Origin: Phycisphaera sp. | GTDB lineage: Bacteria > Planctomycetota > Phycisphaerae > Phycisphaerales > Zrk34 | Length of the DNA stretch: 56,225 nt | Assembly: GCA_016125285.1 (NCBI GenBank) | Contig: WGMA01000035.1 | Location: 1-56,225, forward strand | Direction: 5' to 3' | Shown: positions 48,184-55,921 of the stretch, piece by piece | Layout of the letters: each line of letters starts with the position of its first letter | Numbering within the stretch: the first letter of the stretch is position 1 | Translations under genes and position numbers: made by a program | Notes under the pieces: generated by a model | The model's input: only the letters and a program-made list of their open reading frames with translations | Databases searched by the model: none | Told to the model about the DNA's origin: nothing

Positions 48184-49910
48184 GTCTGTTCCGGCCCAAC
48201 CACCAGCCGATGACGCTTCGGCCGTACCAGCGTGAAGCGGTGGAGTCGGTTTACCGGCATCTGCGCGAACGCGATGACAACCCGTGCGTGGTGATCCCGA
48301 CCGGCGGCGGCAAGACACCTGTGATCGCCACGATCTGCTCGGACGCCGTGACGAAGTGGGATGGGCGCGTTCTGATCCTTGCCCACGTCAAGGAACTGCT
48401 CGAGCAAGCGTGCGACAAGCTCGACCAGGTCTGCCCCGACATCCACGTTGGTGTGTACTCCGCGGGCCTCAAGCGCCGCGACACGGCGCACCCCGTCATC
48501 ATCGCCGGCATCCAGTCCGTGTATCAGCGGCCCGACGAACTCGGGCACTTTGACTTGGTTATCGTCGACGAAGCGCACATGATTCCTCCGGGTGCCGGCG
48601 GCGACGGCATGTACCGGCGCTTCCTCGAAGGCGCCCACGCGGTCAACCCGCACCTGCGCGTGATCGGCTTGACGGCGACGCCGTTCCGGATGGCGTCGGG
48701 TCCGATCTGTGTGCCCGCCCCAGAGGGCATCCTCAATGCCGTCTGCTACGAGATCGGCGTGCGCGAGCTGATCCGCGACGGCTTCCTCTCTCCGCTGAAG
48801 ACCAAGGGCGGTCGGTACAAGCCGGACTTTCAGGGGCTGCACGTGCGCGCCGGCGAGTTCGTCGCCGATGAAGTCGAGGCGCTGATGGACGAGGACGGCC
48901 TGGTCCACTCGGCGTGCAGTGAAATCGTCGATCACGCGCGCGATCGCAAGGCATGCCTCGTCTTCGCCTCAGGTGTGACGCACGGGCAGCACGTGGCGAA
49001 GACGATTGAGCGCATCTCCGCGGGCGGCGATGAGTGCGGGTTCATCGACGGGCAGACGCCAACGCTCTACCGCGACCAGCTGGTCCGCCGCTTCCGCGAA
49101 GGTGCCCTCAAGTACCTCGTCAACGTCAACGTGCTAACCACCGGCTTCGATGCGCCCAACGTCGACTGCGTGGCGCTGCTGCGCCCGACGATGTCGCCGG
49201 GGCTCTACTACCAGATGGTCGGGCGGGGTTTTCGCCTGTGCGAAGGCAAGATCGATTGTCTCGTCCTCGACTTCGGCGGCAACGTGCTGCGCCACGGCCC
49301 GGTCGATGCAATCCACATCGGCGCGCCGGATGCGCGAGGAACTGGCGAGGCGCCGGCAAAGGAATGCCCGCAGTGCCAGGCCCTGATCGCCACGGGTTAC
49401 GGCGCGTGTCCCGAATGCGGTCACGAGTTTCCGCCGCCCGAACGGCGTAAGCACGATGCGGCGTCCGGCGCCGCGGGGATTCTCACGGGCGAGGTCACGA
49501 TCAGCGAGTACGAAGTGCGGCGCGTCTACTACAGCGTCCATGTCAAGCGCGACGCGCCGCCGGAAGCGCCCCGCTCGATGCGCGTCGACTACGAAGTTGG
49601 GTTCAGCGAGTACAAGTCCGAGTGGGTCTGTCTCGAACACGACGGCTACGCCCGCCAGAAGGCAGAGGCGTGGTGGCGCTTGCGCTCGTGCCTTGCGGTT
49701 CCGAGCAACGTTGATGAGGCGGTGGAACTGGCCAACGCCGGCGCCCTGGCCGAGGTGCTGTCGATCACGGTGCGCTCGGTCGCTGGCGAGAAATACGACC
49801 GCATCGTGGATTGCGAGCTGGGCGCCAAGCCGGAGCCCGCGGACCTGAGCTTACCCCTGGACGAGAACGTGCCGGAGTACGCCCCGGTCGACGATGACAT
49901 CCCCTTCTGA
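48180..49910 (+). CDS. SF2 DEAH-box helicase (phage/plasmid type) with zinc ribbon
   Basis: This 576-residue protein starts at GTG 48180 (GAGGAGG upstream, GTGA overlap). The Q-like motif TLRPYQREAV is near residue 12. Walker A is PTGGGKT (40-46), Walker B is VDEAH (129-133) and motif III-like LTATPF lies near 163. The C-terminal RecA-like domain includes GFDAPNVDC and YYQMVGRGFR (about 325-345). After it, a CPQC...CPEC zinc ribbon (about 395-415) and a 150-residue tail follow. It probably unwinds DNA or RNA during element replication or recombination. Confidence 0.9.
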   Translation: MSLFRPNHQPMTLRPYQREAVESVYRHLRERDDNPCVVIPTGGGKTPVIATICSDAVTKWDGRVLILAHVKELLEQACDKLDQVCPDIHVGVYSAGLKRRDTAHPVIIAGIQSVYQRPDELGHFDLVIVDEAHMIPPGAGGDGMYRRFLEGAHAVNPHLRVIGLTATPFRMASGPICVPAPEGILNAVCYEIGVRELIRDGFLSPLKTKGGRYKPDFQGLHVRAGEFVADEVEALMDEDGLVHSACSEIVDHARDRKACLVFASGVTHGQHVAKTIERISAGGDECGFIDGQTPTLYRDQLVRRFREGALKYLVNVNVLTTGFDAPNVDCVALLRPTMSPGLYYQMVGRGFRLCEGKIDCLVLDFGGNVLRHGPVDAIHIGAPDARGTGEAPAKECPQCQALIATGYGACPECGHEFPPPERRKHDAASGAAGILTGEVTISEYEVRRVYYSVHVKRDAPPEAPRSMRVDYEVGFSEYKSEWVCLEHDGYARQKAEAWWRLRSCLAVPSNVDEAVELANAGALAEVLSITVRSVAGEKYDRIVDCELGAKPEPADLSLPLDENVPEYAPVDDDIPF

Positions 49911-51927
49911 GGAGCGAACGACCCGACACATGTATCTGCGCGACGCTGCCATCTTGTACCAAGGAGCCGGTCTTGCCGTGCTGCCCGCGCGACGCGCCGA
50001 GAAGCGCCCGGCGGTCGGCTCGTGGAAGCAGTATCGGGATCGTTCGCCCACCGAGGCCGAGGTATCGGCGTGGTTCGCCAACGATCACGACGCGCTGTGT
50101 GTTCTCTGCGGCCGCGCGTCGAGCAACGTGGAGATCATCGACTTCGACGCGGCCGGCGAACTCTTCGCGGCGTGGTGGGATCGCCTTCCGCCGGAGTTGC
50201 GGGACAAACTCGTAGTCGAGCAAACGCCCTCGGGCGGTTACCACGCCGTCTACCGCTACGAGTCGGAGATCTGCGGCAACCTGAAACTCGCCCAGCGCCA
50301 TGACGGCCATCGGGTCGTCACGCTCATCGAGACCCGGGGCGAAGGCGGACTGTTCCTGTGCACTCCAACACCCGGATACGAACTGATCCAGGGCGACCTA
50401 TGCGACCCGCCCGTGCTCACGGAGGCCGAACGCGACGCGCTGCTCCAAGCCGCGTGGGAGCTGAATGAGTACGTGCCGCCGGCGATCGACGGGCCCAACA
50501 CCAACCCACATTCCGCCGCATCGGGCGAGACGGCCATCAGGCCCGGTGATGATTTCAACGAGCGCGGCGATGTTCGCACTGTCCTTGAGCGCTGCGGCTG
50601 GTCGTGCGTGCGCGGCGGTGAGAACGAGTACTGGCGTCGGCCGGGTAAGTCTCATGGCTGGAGTGGCACGCTCAAGGACAATGTCTTCTACGTCTTCAGC
50701 GCCAACGCCGCGCCGTTCGAGCCCAACCGGGCCTATTCGCCGTTCGCCGTGTACGCGAGCCTCGAACACGACGGCGACTACGCCCGCGCTGCCTCGGCGC
50801 TGCGATCTCAGGGTTTCGGATCGTCGCCTCCAATGACAGCCCTCAGCGGGTCGGCAACCGGCCCGCCCGCAGCGCCGCTGCCGCAGTTCGAGCCGCTGAC
50901 GGTGCGCTCCCTGGTCGCCGAGTTCCCCGCGCTGCGCCCGCCGATCATTCACGGTCTGCTGCGCGAGGGCGAAACGATGAACCTGATCGCCAGTCCCAAG
51001 ACCGGCAAGTCGTGGCTCGTCACCGACCTGGCGATCTCCGTCGCCACGGGCCGCGACTGGCTCGGTCAATTCCGCTGCGAACGCGGCGATGTGCTGATCC
51101 TCGACAACGAGCTGCACGGCGAGACCAGCGCCCACCGCATCCCCAAGGTCGCCGTGGCGCGGCAGGTGCCCGTCGACGCCTACGCCGACCGCGTGTGGGT
51201 GCAGAACCTCCGCGGGCACCTGCAGGACGTGTTCTCGCTCGGCTCGTACTTCCAGGCGCTGGAGCCCGGCCGGTTCAAGGTAATCATCCTTGACGCCTTC
51301 TACCGGTTCATGCCGCGCGACATGGACGAGAACGACAACGGGACGATGGCGTCACTCTACAACCACCTCGACCGCTACGCCGACCGGCTGGGCTGCTCGT
51401 TCGTGCTGATCCACCACACCACCAAGGGCAACCAGTCGGCCAAGAGCGTTACCGACGTGGGCGCGGGCGCCGGCAGTCAGAGCCGCGCCACCGACACGCA
51501 CATGGTCTTGCGTCCGCACGAGGAGGACGACGCGGTCGTGGTTGACGCTGCCGTGCGCTCGTGGCCGCCGGTCGCCCCGCGTTGCCTGCGCTGGTCGTTC
51601 CCCGTCTGGTCGCCCGCCGATGACCTCGACCCAGCGCACCTGCGGTCCGACGGCGGCAAGAAGCGCGGCGAGAAGAAGGACGAGTGGACCCCCGAGTCGT
51701 TCGTCGAGGCGTTCATCAACGACGAGCCGGCCACGCGATCGGCCATCATCAGCAAGGCGATACGTGCAGGCCTGTCGAGGTGGGCGGCGGACAACCTGCT
51801 TCGCACGGCGGATGGCGACGGGCTTGTGGTGCGCCACGGCACGGGCCGGCGCAACCAACCCTCGACCTACCAGCGCCCCGGAAACGCCCCAGGTGCGGTA
51901 CTCGAAGGTGAGGAGGAGCAGTCATGA
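49894..51927 (+). CDS. Primase-polymerase fused to RepA-like AAA ATPase
   Basis: This 677-residue protein has an N-terminal bifunctional primase-polymerase (Prim-Pol) domain (about 15-200) with the metal pair in EIIDFDAAG (Asp83, Asp85) and GGYHAVYRY (His117). A central linker follows (200-330). The C-terminal RepA/DnaB-like ATPase has Walker A SPKTGKSW (367-374), Walker B VIILDAFYRFM near 465, and a helix-rich winged tail. It is a replication initiator/primase-helicase of plasmids and phages. The ATG at 49894 overlaps the helicase by 17 nt; ATG 49930 is an alternative 15 nt after GAGGAG. A block of hairpins begins at its 3' end. Confidence 0.85.
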   Translation: MTSPSEERTTRHMYLRDAAILYQGAGLAVLPARRAEKRPAVGSWKQYRDRSPTEAEVSAWFANDHDALCVLCGRASSNVEIIDFDAAGELFAAWWDRLPPELRDKLVVEQTPSGGYHAVYRYESEICGNLKLAQRHDGHRVVTLIETRGEGGLFLCTPTPGYELIQGDLCDPPVLTEAERDALLQAAWELNEYVPPAIDGPNTNPHSAASGETAIRPGDDFNERGDVRTVLERCGWSCVRGGENEYWRRPGKSHGWSGTLKDNVFYVFSANAAPFEPNRAYSPFAVYASLEHDGDYARAASALRSQGFGSSPPMTALSGSATGPPAAPLPQFEPLTVRSLVAEFPALRPPIIHGLLREGETMNLIASPKTGKSWLVTDLAISVATGRDWLGQFRCERGDVLILDNELHGETSAHRIPKVAVARQVPVDAYADRVWVQNLRGHLQDVFSLGSYFQALEPGRFKVIILDAFYRFMPRDMDENDNGTMASLYNHLDRYADRLGCSFVLIHHTTKGNQSAKSVTDVGAGAGSQSRATDTHMVLRPHEEDDAVVVDAAVRSWPPVAPRCLRWSFPVWSPADDLDPAHLRSDGGKKRGEKKDEWTPESFVEAFINDEPATRSAIISKAIRAGLSRWAADNLLRTADGDGLVVRHGTGRRNQPSTYQRPGNAPGAVLEGEEEQS

Positions 51928-52361
51928 GATTTCGTTTTGTGAATCGTTTGGTGCGCACAAAACAAATCGGTGGTGGTTTCGTTTTGTGCGCCGCACGCAG
52001 CGCACAAAACGAAAGCCGCACGCCGGGTCTCGTTTCGTTTTGTGCGCCCCTAAAGGGGCGCACACAAAACGAAACGGACCAGGGCCGGCGTGCCCCGCGA
52101 CCAGGACGATTCGTTTGGCGCACCAAACGAAACGCCCGCCCCCTCCGCACAGGTTCGCCCACGTTGGCCCACGTGGCGAACCCCGGACCTGCCTTGGCCC
52201 GCCGTCCCACCCCGCGACCGGCGCGACACGGCCCAACGTGGGCGAGATTCGCAGTTACCCACAATCTGCCAGTCTGGCAGTGGGTAACTCCGAGGCGATG
52301 GTTCCTCCCTGGCCGGGTCGGGCAGGAGATGGCGGCGGGAACAGCACCCGTTAGCGACTGA
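51924..52361 (+). CDS. Doubtful ORF reading through the hairpin repeats
   Basis: This 145-codon frame has an ATGA overlap with the primase stop and a strong GAGGAG 6 nt upstream, so translation could begin here. However, its product is largely the translation of repeated hairpin arms (repeated FVxR/QNE-type words such as RFVNRLVRTKQ and VSFCAPLKGRTQNET) and of GC-rich spacer. It has no domain. Either a gene start was invaded by repeats, or the frame is fortuitous. Confidence 0.25.
   Translation: MRFRFVNRLVRTKQIGGGFVLCAARSAQNESRTPGLVSFCAPLKGRTQNETDQGRRAPRPGRFVWRTKRNARPLRTGSPTLAHVANPGPALARRPTPRPARHGPTWARFAVTHNLPVWQWVTPRRWFLPGRVGQEMAAGTAPVSD
51929..52131. repeat. Four hairpins, three built from a shared TTTCGTTTTGTGCGC arm
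   Basis: Hairpin A: 51929-51941 with 51956-51967 (one-base bulge). Hairpin B: TTTCGTTTTGTGCGC 51977-51991, perfect complement 52000-52014, 8-nt loop. Hairpin C: 52031-52050 with 52055-52076, 20 pairs with a 2-nt bulge, loop TAAA. Hairpin D: TTCGTTTGG 52110-52118 with 52123-52131, loop CGCA. Arms A-C are the same sequence in alternating orientation; D is shorter and only its TTCGTTT resembles them. The cluster starts 2 bp after the primase stop. Confidence 0.85.
52152..52288. repeat. Two further hairpins between the primase and methyltransferase genes
   Basis: Hairpin E: GGTTCGCCCACGT 52152-52164 with ACGTGGCGAACC 52171-52182 (one-base bulge, loop TGGCCC); part of the arm recurs at 52232-52245. 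Hairpin F is nested: GTTACCCAC 52254-52262 with GTGGGTAAC 52280-52288, enclosing CTGCCAG 52266-52272 with CTGGCAG 52274-52280. Their arms differ from hairpins A-C. The rest of the stretch to 52397 contains no gene I would support. Confidence 0.75.
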
Positions 52362-52397
52362 CTTTCTTTCGTGAAAAACACACACCAGGAGCTTCCC

Positions 52398-53726
52398 ATG
52401 AAGATCGAACTCCGTCCCTTGGACCAGATCAAACCGTACCCCGGCAACCCGCGCCAGAATGACGAGGCGGTGGACGCCGTCGCCGCGTCGCTGCGCGAGT
52501 TCGGGTTCCGGCAACCCATTGTGGTCGACGCCGAGGGCGTGATCATCGTCGGCCACACCCGCTACAAGGCGGCGCAGAAGCTGGGCCTGGCCAAGGCGCC
52601 GGTGCATGTCGCCACGGACCTGACCCCGGCGCAGATCAAGGCGTACCGCATCGCCGACAACCAGACGGCCAGCATCGCCGAGTGGGATTACGAGCTGCTG
52701 CCCATCGAGTTGTCGGCGCTACAGGAGATGGACTACGACCTGGGCCTGCTCGGCTTCGACCAGGAGGAACTGACGCGGATCATGTCCGGCGACGTGGAGC
52801 AGGGCATGACCGACCCCGACGACGTGCCGCTGCCGCCCGACGCCGCTACCACGCAGCCCGGCGACCTGTGGGTGCTGGGCAACCATCGTCTGCTCTGCGC
52901 CGACAGCTCGAACTCCGAGCATGTGGACCGGTTGCTCGACGGCTCGGTGGTTCATCTGGTGAACACCGACCCGCCGTACAACGTGAAGGTCGAGCCGCGC
53001 AGCAACAACGCGATCGCCGCCGGACTGTCATCTTTCGAGACGATGCATCACCAGAAGCTGGACGTCGAGCGCCACCCCGGCAAGGCCAAACCGACGCAGA
53101 AGAAACTCCGCGCCAAGGACCGGCCGCTCGCCAACGACTTCGTGACAGACGAGGCGTTTGATCAACTGCTCGATGCGTGGTTCGGCAACATCGCGCGCGT
53201 ACTCGCCCCCGGTCGCGGGTTCTACATCTGGGGCGGCTACGCCAACTGCGCCAACTACCCGCCGGTGCTCAAGCAGTGCGAGCTGTATTTCTCCCAAGCG
53301 CTGATCTGGGTGAAGCAGCACCCGGTGCTCACGCGCAAGGATTTCATGGGCAACCACGAGTGGTGTTTCTACGGCTGGCGAGAAGGCGCGGCGCACAAGT
53401 TCTATGGCCCGGCGAACGTGCCCGACGTGTGGTCGGTAAAGAAGGTCAATCCGCAGTCGATGGTTCACCTCACCGAGAAGCCGGTCGAATTGGCGATCCG
53501 CGCGCTGCAGTACTCATCGCTCGCCGGCGAGAACGTGCTGGACCTTTTCGGCGGCAGCGGCAGCACGCTCATCGCCGCCGAGCAGACCGGGCGCCACGCC
53601 TACCTGATGGAACTCGACGCGCTGTACTGCGACGTGATTGTGCAGCGATGGGAACAGTTCACGGGTCGCAAAGCTGAACGCATCGCCGACCCCGTATCCG
53701 AACCGGCATCTGCTGTGGGGGCTTGA
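52398..53726 (+). CDS. ParB/Srx-domain DNA methyltransferase (N4/N6, beta-class order)
   Basis: This 442-residue protein starts at ATG 52398 after AGGAG. Residues 1-120 are a ParB/sulfiredoxin-like domain (PLDQIKPYPGNPRQN and IVVGHTRYKAAQKLG). The methyltransferase follows, with catalytic DPPY (191-194) and the AdoMet-binding FGGSG near 384-388. DPPY before FxGxG gives the beta-class order. A target-recognition region lies between. Such ParB-methylase fusions are common in phages and integrative plasmids and act as orphan methylases, without a restriction partner nearby. Confidence 0.88.
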   Translation: MKIELRPLDQIKPYPGNPRQNDEAVDAVAASLREFGFRQPIVVDAEGVIIVGHTRYKAAQKLGLAKAPVHVATDLTPAQIKAYRIADNQTASIAEWDYELLPIELSALQEMDYDLGLLGFDQEELTRIMSGDVEQGMTDPDDVPLPPDAATTQPGDLWVLGNHRLLCADSSNSEHVDRLLDGSVVHLVNTDPPYNVKVEPRSNNAIAAGLSSFETMHHQKLDVERHPGKAKPTQKKLRAKDRPLANDFVTDEAFDQLLDAWFGNIARVLAPGRGFYIWGGYANCANYPPVLKQCELYFSQALIWVKQHPVLTRKDFMGNHEWCFYGWREGAAHKFYGPANVPDVWSVKKVNPQSMVHLTEKPVELAIRALQYSSLAGENVLDLFGGSGSTLIAAEQTGRHAYLMELDALYCDVIVQRWEQFTGRKAERIADPVSEPASAVGA

Positions 53727-53732
53727 TTGAGC

Positions 53733-54890
53733 TTACTGCGTGTCCTTGGTCAGAACCTGGAGGTATTCGTGATAGGCATAAACACGATCCCGCTGCTTGC
53801 CGGAGGTTTCGCGGAGAACACCGGCGTTCTGCAAGGTCTTGATGGCCTTGAGCGCGGTGGGCTTGGTCGTTGTCAGCAGCTCAATCGCCAACGGCAATGT
53901 CACGATCGGGTGCCGTGGAAGTTGATCGAACAAGCGAATCGCAGTTACCGTGGCCGAGTCGTGATTGGCGACCGCCTCGCGGTCACGATTGATACGGATG
54001 AACAGACGCCGCGCGACGGCCACACCGTCATCCGCCGATTCACGCACGCATTCGAGAAAGAACGTCACCCAGCCCTCCCAAGCGCCGTCGGTGCGGACGG
54101 CCGAGAGCTTCTGGTAGTACAACTGCTGGTGGCGCTTGAACGCCAGGCTGAGATACAGCAGCGGCGCATCGAGCAGGCCCCAGTGCTCGACCAGCAGCGT
54201 AATCAGCAGCCTGCCCACGCGCCCGTTGCCGTCAAGGAACGGGTGAATCGTCTCGAACTGAACGTGCGCCAGGCCCGCTTTGATCAGCGGCGGCAGCGGG
54301 TCATCGCTGTGCATCCACCGCTCAAGCGCCGCCATGCTCTCGCCCACCGCATCCGGGGGCGGCGGTACGAATACGGCACGACCCGGCCGGGTGCCGCCGA
54401 GCCAGTTCTGCGAGCGACGGATTTCACCCGGTTGCTTATCGCGGCCGCGCACGCCAGTCATCAGCCGTTTGTGTGCCTGGCACAAGAGCCGCGTGCTCAA
54501 GGGCAGCCCTTTGGGCCGGGCGATCTCACGCCGGGCGTAGGTCAACGCATCGACGTAGTTACAGACCTCCTGCACATCGTCGGGGCGATCGGCTTGATCG
54601 GTGGCCTCGTAGTTGAGCACATCTTTAAGCGTGGCCTGCGTGCCTTCGATCTGCGACGAAACGACAGCCTCTTTGCGGACGAACCCGTAGAGGAACCAGT
54701 CGGAGCTGGGCACCATCGCGCCGGCCACGGAGAGTCGGGCCAACGACGACATCGCCGCTCCAAGCAACTGCTGCGTCGGTTCGTCAACTGCCAGCGGCGG
54801 CTTGGCGGGCGGCAGTGGATGCGGGATGAACGCCCGCACCTTCTCTTCACCCGCGGTGGCCACCCGATATGTACCGGTCGTTCTGGACAT
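53733..54890 (-). CDS. Fic family protein with built-in inhibitory motif
   Basis: This 385-residue protein starts at ATG 54890; a TTG at 54914 would add 8 residues. The Fic catalytic motif HPFLDGNGRVGR (216-227) is intact. An N-terminal inhibitory motif SSQIEG (78-83, [ST]xxxE[GN]) means class II auto-inhibited. A C-terminal winged-helix-like domain (about 305-385) may bind DNA. It transfers AMP (or another nucleotide moiety) to hydroxyl groups of target proteins; the target is unknown. It converges on the methyltransferase gene (6-bp gap). A symmetrical promoter/operator lies upstream, suggesting autoregulation. Confidence 0.9.
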   Translation of the reverse strand: MSRTTGTYRVATAGEEKVRAFIPHPLPPAKPPLAVDEPTQQLLGAAMSSLARLSVAGAMVPSSDWFLYGFVRKEAVVSSQIEGTQATLKDVLNYEATDQADRPDDVQEVCNYVDALTYARREIARPKGLPLSTRLLCQAHKRLMTGVRGRDKQPGEIRRSQNWLGGTRPGRAVFVPPPPDAVGESMAALERWMHSDDPLPPLIKAGLAHVQFETIHPFLDGNGRVGRLLITLLVEHWGLLDAPLLYLSLAFKRHQQLYYQKLSAVRTDGAWEGWVTFFLECVRESADDGVAVARRLFIRINRDREAVANHDSATVTAIRLFDQLPRHPIVTLPLAIELLTTTKPTALKAIKTLQNAGVLRETSGKQRDRVYAYHEYLQVLTKDTQ

Positions 54891-54918
54891 CGTTGGTTTA
54901 GCTCTCTTAACCAAGCGC

Positions 54919-55432: not shown

Positions 55433-55921
55433 TCACTTTCCTCTGAATGCGAACAAGCCGCGATCGGTCTTCTTGAAACGTGCGTCGGCGCCCTTGGTCT
55501 GAATCTCGCGGAGGATCGCGGCGTAGATCGTCGCGTGGGGCGTCTTGCCATCAGTCTTCCACAGCTTCTTAGCCAGCATGGTTTCGACGATGTCTTTGCA
55601 ACGCATGGGCTGCTTGGCGTCCTTGAGAACCTGTGCCGCCGCATCGAGGCCGCTCGCCTTCTTCTGCTTCTTGGGTTTGGGCACAGCCCCCGAGGCGCTC
55701 GTGGCCATCGCCCGTTCGCCCCCGGATTTGGCCGTCATGCCATCGGGGCTTTTGGCTTGTTCGTCGCGGACGCGAGCGTTCTCTTGATCGGCCTTCGCCT
55801 GCGCGACGACGTGTTCGCGCGTGGCCTTGCCCTTGGGCGCGGGCTTGGGCTTGGTGGCCTTCTTCGCGGGGGCCTTACGAGTTCCGGGGGTTGCGGACTT
55901 CTTGGTGGTCTTCTTGGCCAT
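55433..55921 (-). CDS. Lys/Ala-rich HARE-HTH DNA-binding protein
   Basis: This 162-residue protein has an N-terminal tail (1-40) of repeated AKK/APKKA units, like histone H1. A basic linker follows to about residue 90, then a HARE-type winged helix (about 90-160, with LDAAAQVLKDAKQPMRCKDIVETML and TPHATIYAAILREIQ, given in part). HARE-HTH domains occur in RNA polymerase delta subunits, restriction endonucleases and ASXL proteins and bind DNA. The combination suggests a nucleoid-type or silencing protein carried by the element. GGAGCATCG precedes the ATG. Confidence 0.78.
   Translation of the reverse strand: MAKKTTKKSATPGTRKAPAKKATKPKPAPKGKATREHVVAQAKADQENARVRDEQAKSPDGMTAKSGGERAMATSASGAVPKPKKQKKASGLDAAAQVLKDAKQPMRCKDIVETMLAKKLWKTDGKTPHATIYAAILREIQTKGADARFKKTDRGLFAFRGK

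Follow-up and report, generated by a model that had tools for sequence, protein, structure and literature searches.

Within the window, by which we mean the whole 56,225-nt stretch of planctomycete DNA that was analysed, a block of inverted repeats lies directly behind the gene of a putative replication initiator and ahead of a DNA methyltransferase gene (Table 1). The initiator, Prim-Pol-RepA, carries the Pfam domains Prim-Pol and AAA_25. In comparisons with PDB profiles, its N-terminus matches pRN1 ORF904 (1rni, E = 6e-7) and its helicase matches RSF1010 RepA (1g8y, E = 1e-13). For residues of about 598–662, the predicted topology is that of a winged helix, with a pLDDT of at least 90 over most of the domain. 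The structural neighbours of this model are largely DNA-binding winged helices; a Foldseek search with the winged helix gave nothing at E = 0.001 or below, and the assignment is to the generic fold only. The winged helices of P4 alpha and ORF904 are absent among the Foldseek matches listed, which excludes nothing.

The start of the methyltransferase gene was taken as the ATG at 52398, and an in-frame GTG is present at 52371. The operon also encodes a RusA resolvase and a Sak4-like protein. On the minus strand, opposed to the replication operon, 53733–54914 and 55433–55921 encode a Fic-family protein and a HARE-HTH protein (Pfam).

Table 1. Genes, reading frame and inverted repeats at the locus (window positions)
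Feature	Position	Strand	Description
Initiator gene, Prim-Pol-RepA	49894..51927	+	Prim-Pol domain, RepA-type (AAA_25) helicase, predicted C-terminal winged helix
Stop-free frame	51924..52361	+	145 codons; its start shares the ATGA with the Prim-Pol stop; spans the whole array
Inverted-repeat block	51930 to about 52293		Prim-Pol stop ends at 51927
hp1	51930–51966		Short imperfect arms TTTCGTTTTGTG / CACAAAACAAA
hp2	51977–52014		Perfect 15-bp arms TTTCGTTTTGTGCGC, 8-nt loop
Core hairpin	52018–52093		hp3 and enclosing outer stem; covariation in 13 relatives
Outer stem around hp3	52018–52026 with 52085–52093		GCACGCCGG/CCGGCGTGC
hp3	52031–52076		20-bp stem, 2-nt bulge, TAAA loop; listed in the first-pass annotation
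hp4	52109–52132		Arms TTCGTTTGG, variant word; also present in the contig C44 copy
hp5	about 52154–52180		TTCGCC..GGCGAA
Wider inverted pair and hp5	52154–52245		Inverted repeats ACGTTGGCCCACGT / GGCCCAACGTGGGC
hp6	52254–52288		GTTACCCAC..GTGGGTAAC; contains a TGCCA-N3-TGGCA palindrome
ParB-N / N6-N4 DNA methyltransferase gene	52398..53726	+	Pfam, phrog_498; context, outside the putative origin

The first-pass annotation had described six hairpins between the primase and methyltransferase genes, and both coordinates and placement were right, with the last base of the Prim-Pol stop at 51927 and 110 bp between the last hairpin (52288) and the methyltransferase ATG. Its statement that three hairpins share the same arm holds for hp2 and hp3, which carry the full 15-nt arm, and fails for hp1, which has only a shorter form; the outer stem around hp3 was missing from its list. 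The two hairpins that it regarded as unrelated include hp6, for which this description does not hold: many diverged loci have its palindrome (52266–52283) in a comparable position. Words related to the hp5 region, TTGGCCCA, are present in several relatives.

That the arm is repeated far beyond chance, as had also been proposed, is borne out by three measures. Folded as single-stranded DNA, positions 51925–52300 reach −126.3 kcal/mol, compared with −78.4 ± 4.6 kcal/mol in shuffles (z = −10.4). Against an expectation of 0.4, the 11-nt core of the arm has eight matches in the window, seven of them inside the block, the window's only arm cluster. Finally, none of the 156 other 350-nt sections reaches the palindrome or word-repeat score of the block.

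Ahead of the methyltransferase gene, at about 52302–52346, the window holds an element GGTTCCTCCC..GCGGGAACAGC. An element of the form GGGTCCTCCC - spacer - GGGAAC is recurrent in many relatives, in both Prim-Pol classes.

Distribution of the arm and of word arrays in related phages

In the 6.1-Mb genome from which the window derives, the 15-mer arm (at most one mismatch) occurs in this block and in a copy on contig C44 only, both directly 3' of a Prim-Pol gene. The C44 block follows a 91% identical Prim-Pol; the phage module to which it belongs also has a large terminase gene. Over their first 180 nt the two blocks are 95–98% identical, and the DNA of the Prim-Pol genes is 88.8% identical; this part of the block is thus more conserved than the gene itself. 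Two of 40 related genomes contain the arm, at four places in all, each lying behind a Prim-Pol relative or beside one. When public sequences were scanned for the inverted arm pair, 18 genome and 10 viral stretches were returned. In every stretch that contains a Prim-Pol relative, the hairpins lie directly 3' of that gene; one stretch (L040) starts at the hairpin and runs on into the methyltransferase, and the remaining ones are isolated single matches.

A repeated arm in alternating orientation is what might be expected of a mobile palindromic repeat dispersed through the genome, like REP or MITE elements, and such a repeat family had been among the proposals of the first-pass annotation. The search of the genome and its 40 relatives contradicts it: the arm has only two places in 6.1 Mb, each 3' of Prim-Pol, and is therefore not a dispersed repeat, and the places in the relatives (4/4) show the same association. 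We consider the probability of this explanation negligible.

For a broader view, Prim-Pol relatives were collected both on viral contigs and in genomes of this phylum and order. Directly 3' of the Prim-Pol gene, most of them show one short word repeated as an array with copies in either orientation, and hairpins are usual. The array word is TTCGTTTTG(TG) in close relatives; further relatives use TTCGTGGTG, CTGTGTGGTG, TGTTCCG, GAAGCGC, GAGCGA, AGTTTCC, GACATGAG, AGTTCCG and others. Scored for repeated words, the 350 nt that follow the gene come top of their locus at 55 of 72 loci, a set that includes some near-duplicates. Among the viral contigs L070-L108, Prim-Pol relatives that are joined to a different C-terminal half are followed by arrays of their own (GTGACGGATT, GTGAAGGATT and GGTGAAA). 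At some of these loci, the array motif seems to extend into the coding tail of the gene (GVKEGGET).

A clear array was not seen behind the gene in L120, L121, L139 and L178-L181. Of these, L139 (G000, contig C2, 13500-17500) is a third Prim-Pol-RepA relative of the same genome.

Conservation of pairing and reading frame, and covariation of the word with the winged helix

The core hairpin was compared across 13 relatives. Over its 29 base pairs, 96.5% of the cells are paired, and 15 of the 29 pairs show changes on both sides, compared with 0–5 in slid controls. The outer stem, which is not made of the word, also covaries. These substitutions comprise 27 double changes and only two one-sided G-U steps, and stem mismatches over all arrays are 9 G-T versus 15 A-C, hence without an excess of G-T. 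Because G-T is not above A-C and G-U steps are almost absent, we favour the view that the hairpins act as DNA and not as RNA.

Hairpins in the transcript of the replicase and methyltransferase genes could alternatively serve as processing sites, as an attenuator or as a terminator. The location inside the operon and the high stability of the single-strand hairpins would suit such an RNA element, and a transcript-processing block had been suggested at the outset; the substitution pattern just described does not support it, nor do the searches for known RNA signals, in which no T-run terminator was found at the block and no Rfam family reached its gathering score (sub-threshold miRNA-like hits fall on a hairpin, with E up to 1). 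Furthermore, ribosomes moving along the frame that stays open across the array would unfold the RNA, and the protein fold with which the word covaries is a DNA-binding one (see below). We regard an RNA element as unlikely.

The open frame begins in an overlap with the Prim-Pol stop, ATGA or GTGA, at 50 loci. In most relatives with such an overlap it crosses the array without a stop. It contains 31 stops at these loci, compared with 127 and 145 in the other two frames, and its openness is significant in a permutation test with 47 loci (p = 5e-5). In L067, L079, L082 and L112, it ends overlapping the start of the methyltransferase gene. A conserved protein encoded by this frame was considered and rejected: the ratio of nonsynonymous to synonymous changes, 0.87, lies between those of the other two frames (0.76 and 1.01), and the reading frame across the core hairpin differs between phages. 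If the block is an origin, the question arises why a reading frame should stay open across it. In one reading, translation would be kept going over a candidate origin inside the operon, avoiding polarity.

Word similarity follows winged-helix identity once helicase identity is removed (partial Mantel r = 0.50, p = 0.0002, 29 non-redundant loci), with this and the following p-values being approximate, as the permutations assume that loci are exchangeable and helicase identity stands in for phylogeny. In the same loci, helicase identity adds nothing once the winged helix is given (r = −0.06). A scan of 30-residue segments from residue 330 onwards peaks at 0.48–0.49 for residues 615–659, which comprise the recognition helix and wing; it stays at or below 0.16 inside the helicase domain and rises toward the end of the gene. 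When 28 held-out loci were compared with the first set, the correlation was again found (r = 0.35, p = 0.0002); here too, helicase identity made no further contribution (0.03, p = 0.42). Some held-out loci have similar winged helices and dissimilar words. A blind prediction of AGTTTCC words for L121 (wing RIKAGSRMVYV) failed, as no array was seen near the gene.

The relationship is most easily seen in L112 and L113, two loci with near-identical helicases that differ mainly in the wing; the word is TCGCTCG in L112 and GAAGCGC in L113. L066 has the wing type and word of L112, and L077, L079 and L082 have those of L113.

Joint exchange by recombination could add to this covariation, because the winged helix and the array adjoin. 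Taken to its limit, this would mean that the two are merely exchanged together as neighbours and that the array has another function, such as copy-number control of the initiator, or none. The encoding of the winged helix directly beside the array and the climb of the covariation toward the end of the gene are compatible with this explanation. The gene that flanks the array on its opposite side, however, follows the word much less: in this linkage control, the N-terminus of the methyltransferase retains a residual of 0.17 (p = 0.05), which is weak but not zero, whereas the winged helix given the methyltransferase retains 0.53. In addition, the same combination of wing and word turns up in proteins of different background (L066 with L112, L077 with L113), and the hairpin pairing is itself under selection. 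We find linkage as the sole explanation improbable.

The same control bears on the idea that the block serves the ParB-methyltransferase as a target or control site, or that it is a site for partition or for recombination (RusA, Sak4). A ParB-N methyltransferase is indeed the next gene in most close relatives, and RusA and the Sak4-like protein belong to the operon. Nevertheless, arrays stay behind Prim-Pol where the methyltransferase is 0.8–1.7 kb away or not found in the fetched locus, and the word tracks the winged helix rather than the methyltransferase. We give this idea very little weight.

A candidate origin and its relation to known replication systems

Given the above, we propose that the block is a cis-acting replication origin of a planctomycete prophage, in which the word would be the binding site of the winged helix of the upstream Prim-Pol-RepA protein and which would be opened to hairpins for priming; judged from sequence comparisons, we assign this a probability of about 0.78. 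A replication origin for single-strand initiation was one of three options in the first-pass annotation. The origin is the option that we favour, because dozens of genomes have the block behind Prim-Pol and the word changes in step with the winged helix; by analogy, initiation on single strands at the hairpins is plausible. GC skew has no extremum at the block.

The linkage to Prim-Pol, the single word per phage and the covariations of word with winged helix and within the hairpin are computed results; physical binding, origin activity, duplex opening and hairpin priming are proposed in the following form. The C-terminal winged helix would bind the word core TTCGTTTTGTG, as the covariation suggests, and multiple copies in both orientations would load the initiator. 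Its RepA-type helicase ring would then open the duplex, as is known for the family, and inverted word pairs on the exposed strands could fold into hairpins. At these, the Prim-Pol domain might start DNA synthesis, in analogy to the ssi hairpins of RSF1010 and the stem-loop of pRN1 (PMC4434180, PMC4234260); for priming at hairpins, we see about even odds.

As far as the literature searched shows, the origins of phages of uncultured planctomycetes are undescribed, and we found nothing specific on planctomycete phage replication. Several known systems resemble the proposed origin. Hairpin initiation sites are found in replicons with pRN1 ORF904 and RSF1010 RepA (PMC4234260, PMC3869888, PMC4434180). 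In pRN1, a stem-loop directly 3' of the ORF904 gene is needed for replication (PMC4234260, PMC3869888), and for the Prim-Pol/SF3/winged-helix proteins of pRN1 and Bordetella phages, assembly at a stem-loop directly behind the gene has been proposed (PMC4234260). ORF904 and the proposed parallel in Bordetella phage BIP-1 share with our locus the combination of Prim-Pol, helicase and C-terminal winged helix in one protein, and a 3' stem-loop whose structure is kept when its loop or stem sequence is not (PMC4234260, PMC3869888). The present locus has the Prim-Pol and a 3' stem-loop with structure conserved above sequence. We do not file it as a pRN1-type replicon, because its helicase is of the AAA_25, RSF1010 RepA-like type and not SF3; moreover, pRN1 has a single large stem-loop without iterons, whereas several one-word hairpins are found here.

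Initiator-linked origins are represented by SaPI and SCCmec, in which a C-terminal domain of the helicase reads repeats directly downstream (PMC7581432). Likewise, short repeats lie directly downstream of the gene in most, not all, of our relatives, and a C-terminal winged helix is predicted. The self-loading initiator helicases SaPI Rep and SCCmec Cch2 read iterons downstream of the helicase gene, and the SCCmec origin also has inverted repeats (PMC7581432). They differ in that their helicases belong to other families and that SaPIbov1 and SCCmec use a separate primase; at our locus, the arms of the hairpins consist of the iteron word itself.

RSF1010, with RepA, RepB', RepC, ssiA and ssiB, has the same RepA-type hexameric helicase and a primase of the archaeo-eukaryotic superfamily that acts at hairpins (PMC4434180, PMC4234260). 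Its iteron binding, helicase and primase reside in three proteins, however, and it has one ssi hairpin per strand, distinct from the iterons; neither separate RepC and RepB' nor one ssi per strand is found at our locus, where a single polypeptide would combine these functions and several hairpins are present. Phage P4 alpha, as described in PMC4234260, is also a primase-helicase with a winged helix that binds origin repeats, but its primase is of the Toprim type and its origin has repeats, not hairpins. Our best reading is an origin of the same kind as those of pRN1, SaPI and SCCmec, with a new combination of protein parts.

It is possible, though we would say so only tentatively and with some doubt, that several unusual features coincide here: a one-protein initiator (Prim-Pol, RepA helicase and winged helix), an origin inside a stop-free frame traversed by ribosomes, sites that double as duplex words and folded priming hairpins, and a specificity that is switched by exchanging the wing with every word copy.

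If the origin reading is right, the proposal that Prim-Pol initiators assemble at the hairpins following their gene would be extended to one whose helicase is of the RepA type, and for dozens of genomes the origin could be located simply by looking immediately 3' of the initiator gene. The many pairs of word and winged helix could then serve as a natural data set from which to study a DNA-recognition code and the compatibility of coexisting prophages.

A further parallel concerns the start word of the primase. The primase activity of ORF904 is reported to need GTG (PMC3869888). The primase-polymerase of phage NrS-1, also a Prim-Pol with a specific template start word, starts synthesis at TTTGGTTA, GTGA and GTGG; there, the primase part recognizes single strands, and the sections consulted do not describe a winged-helix word array (PMC8718748). 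In the arrays, not all of whose words contain GTG, this triplet is over-represented with A, G or C as the next base, with 479 occurrences versus 341 expected from mononucleotide shuffles.
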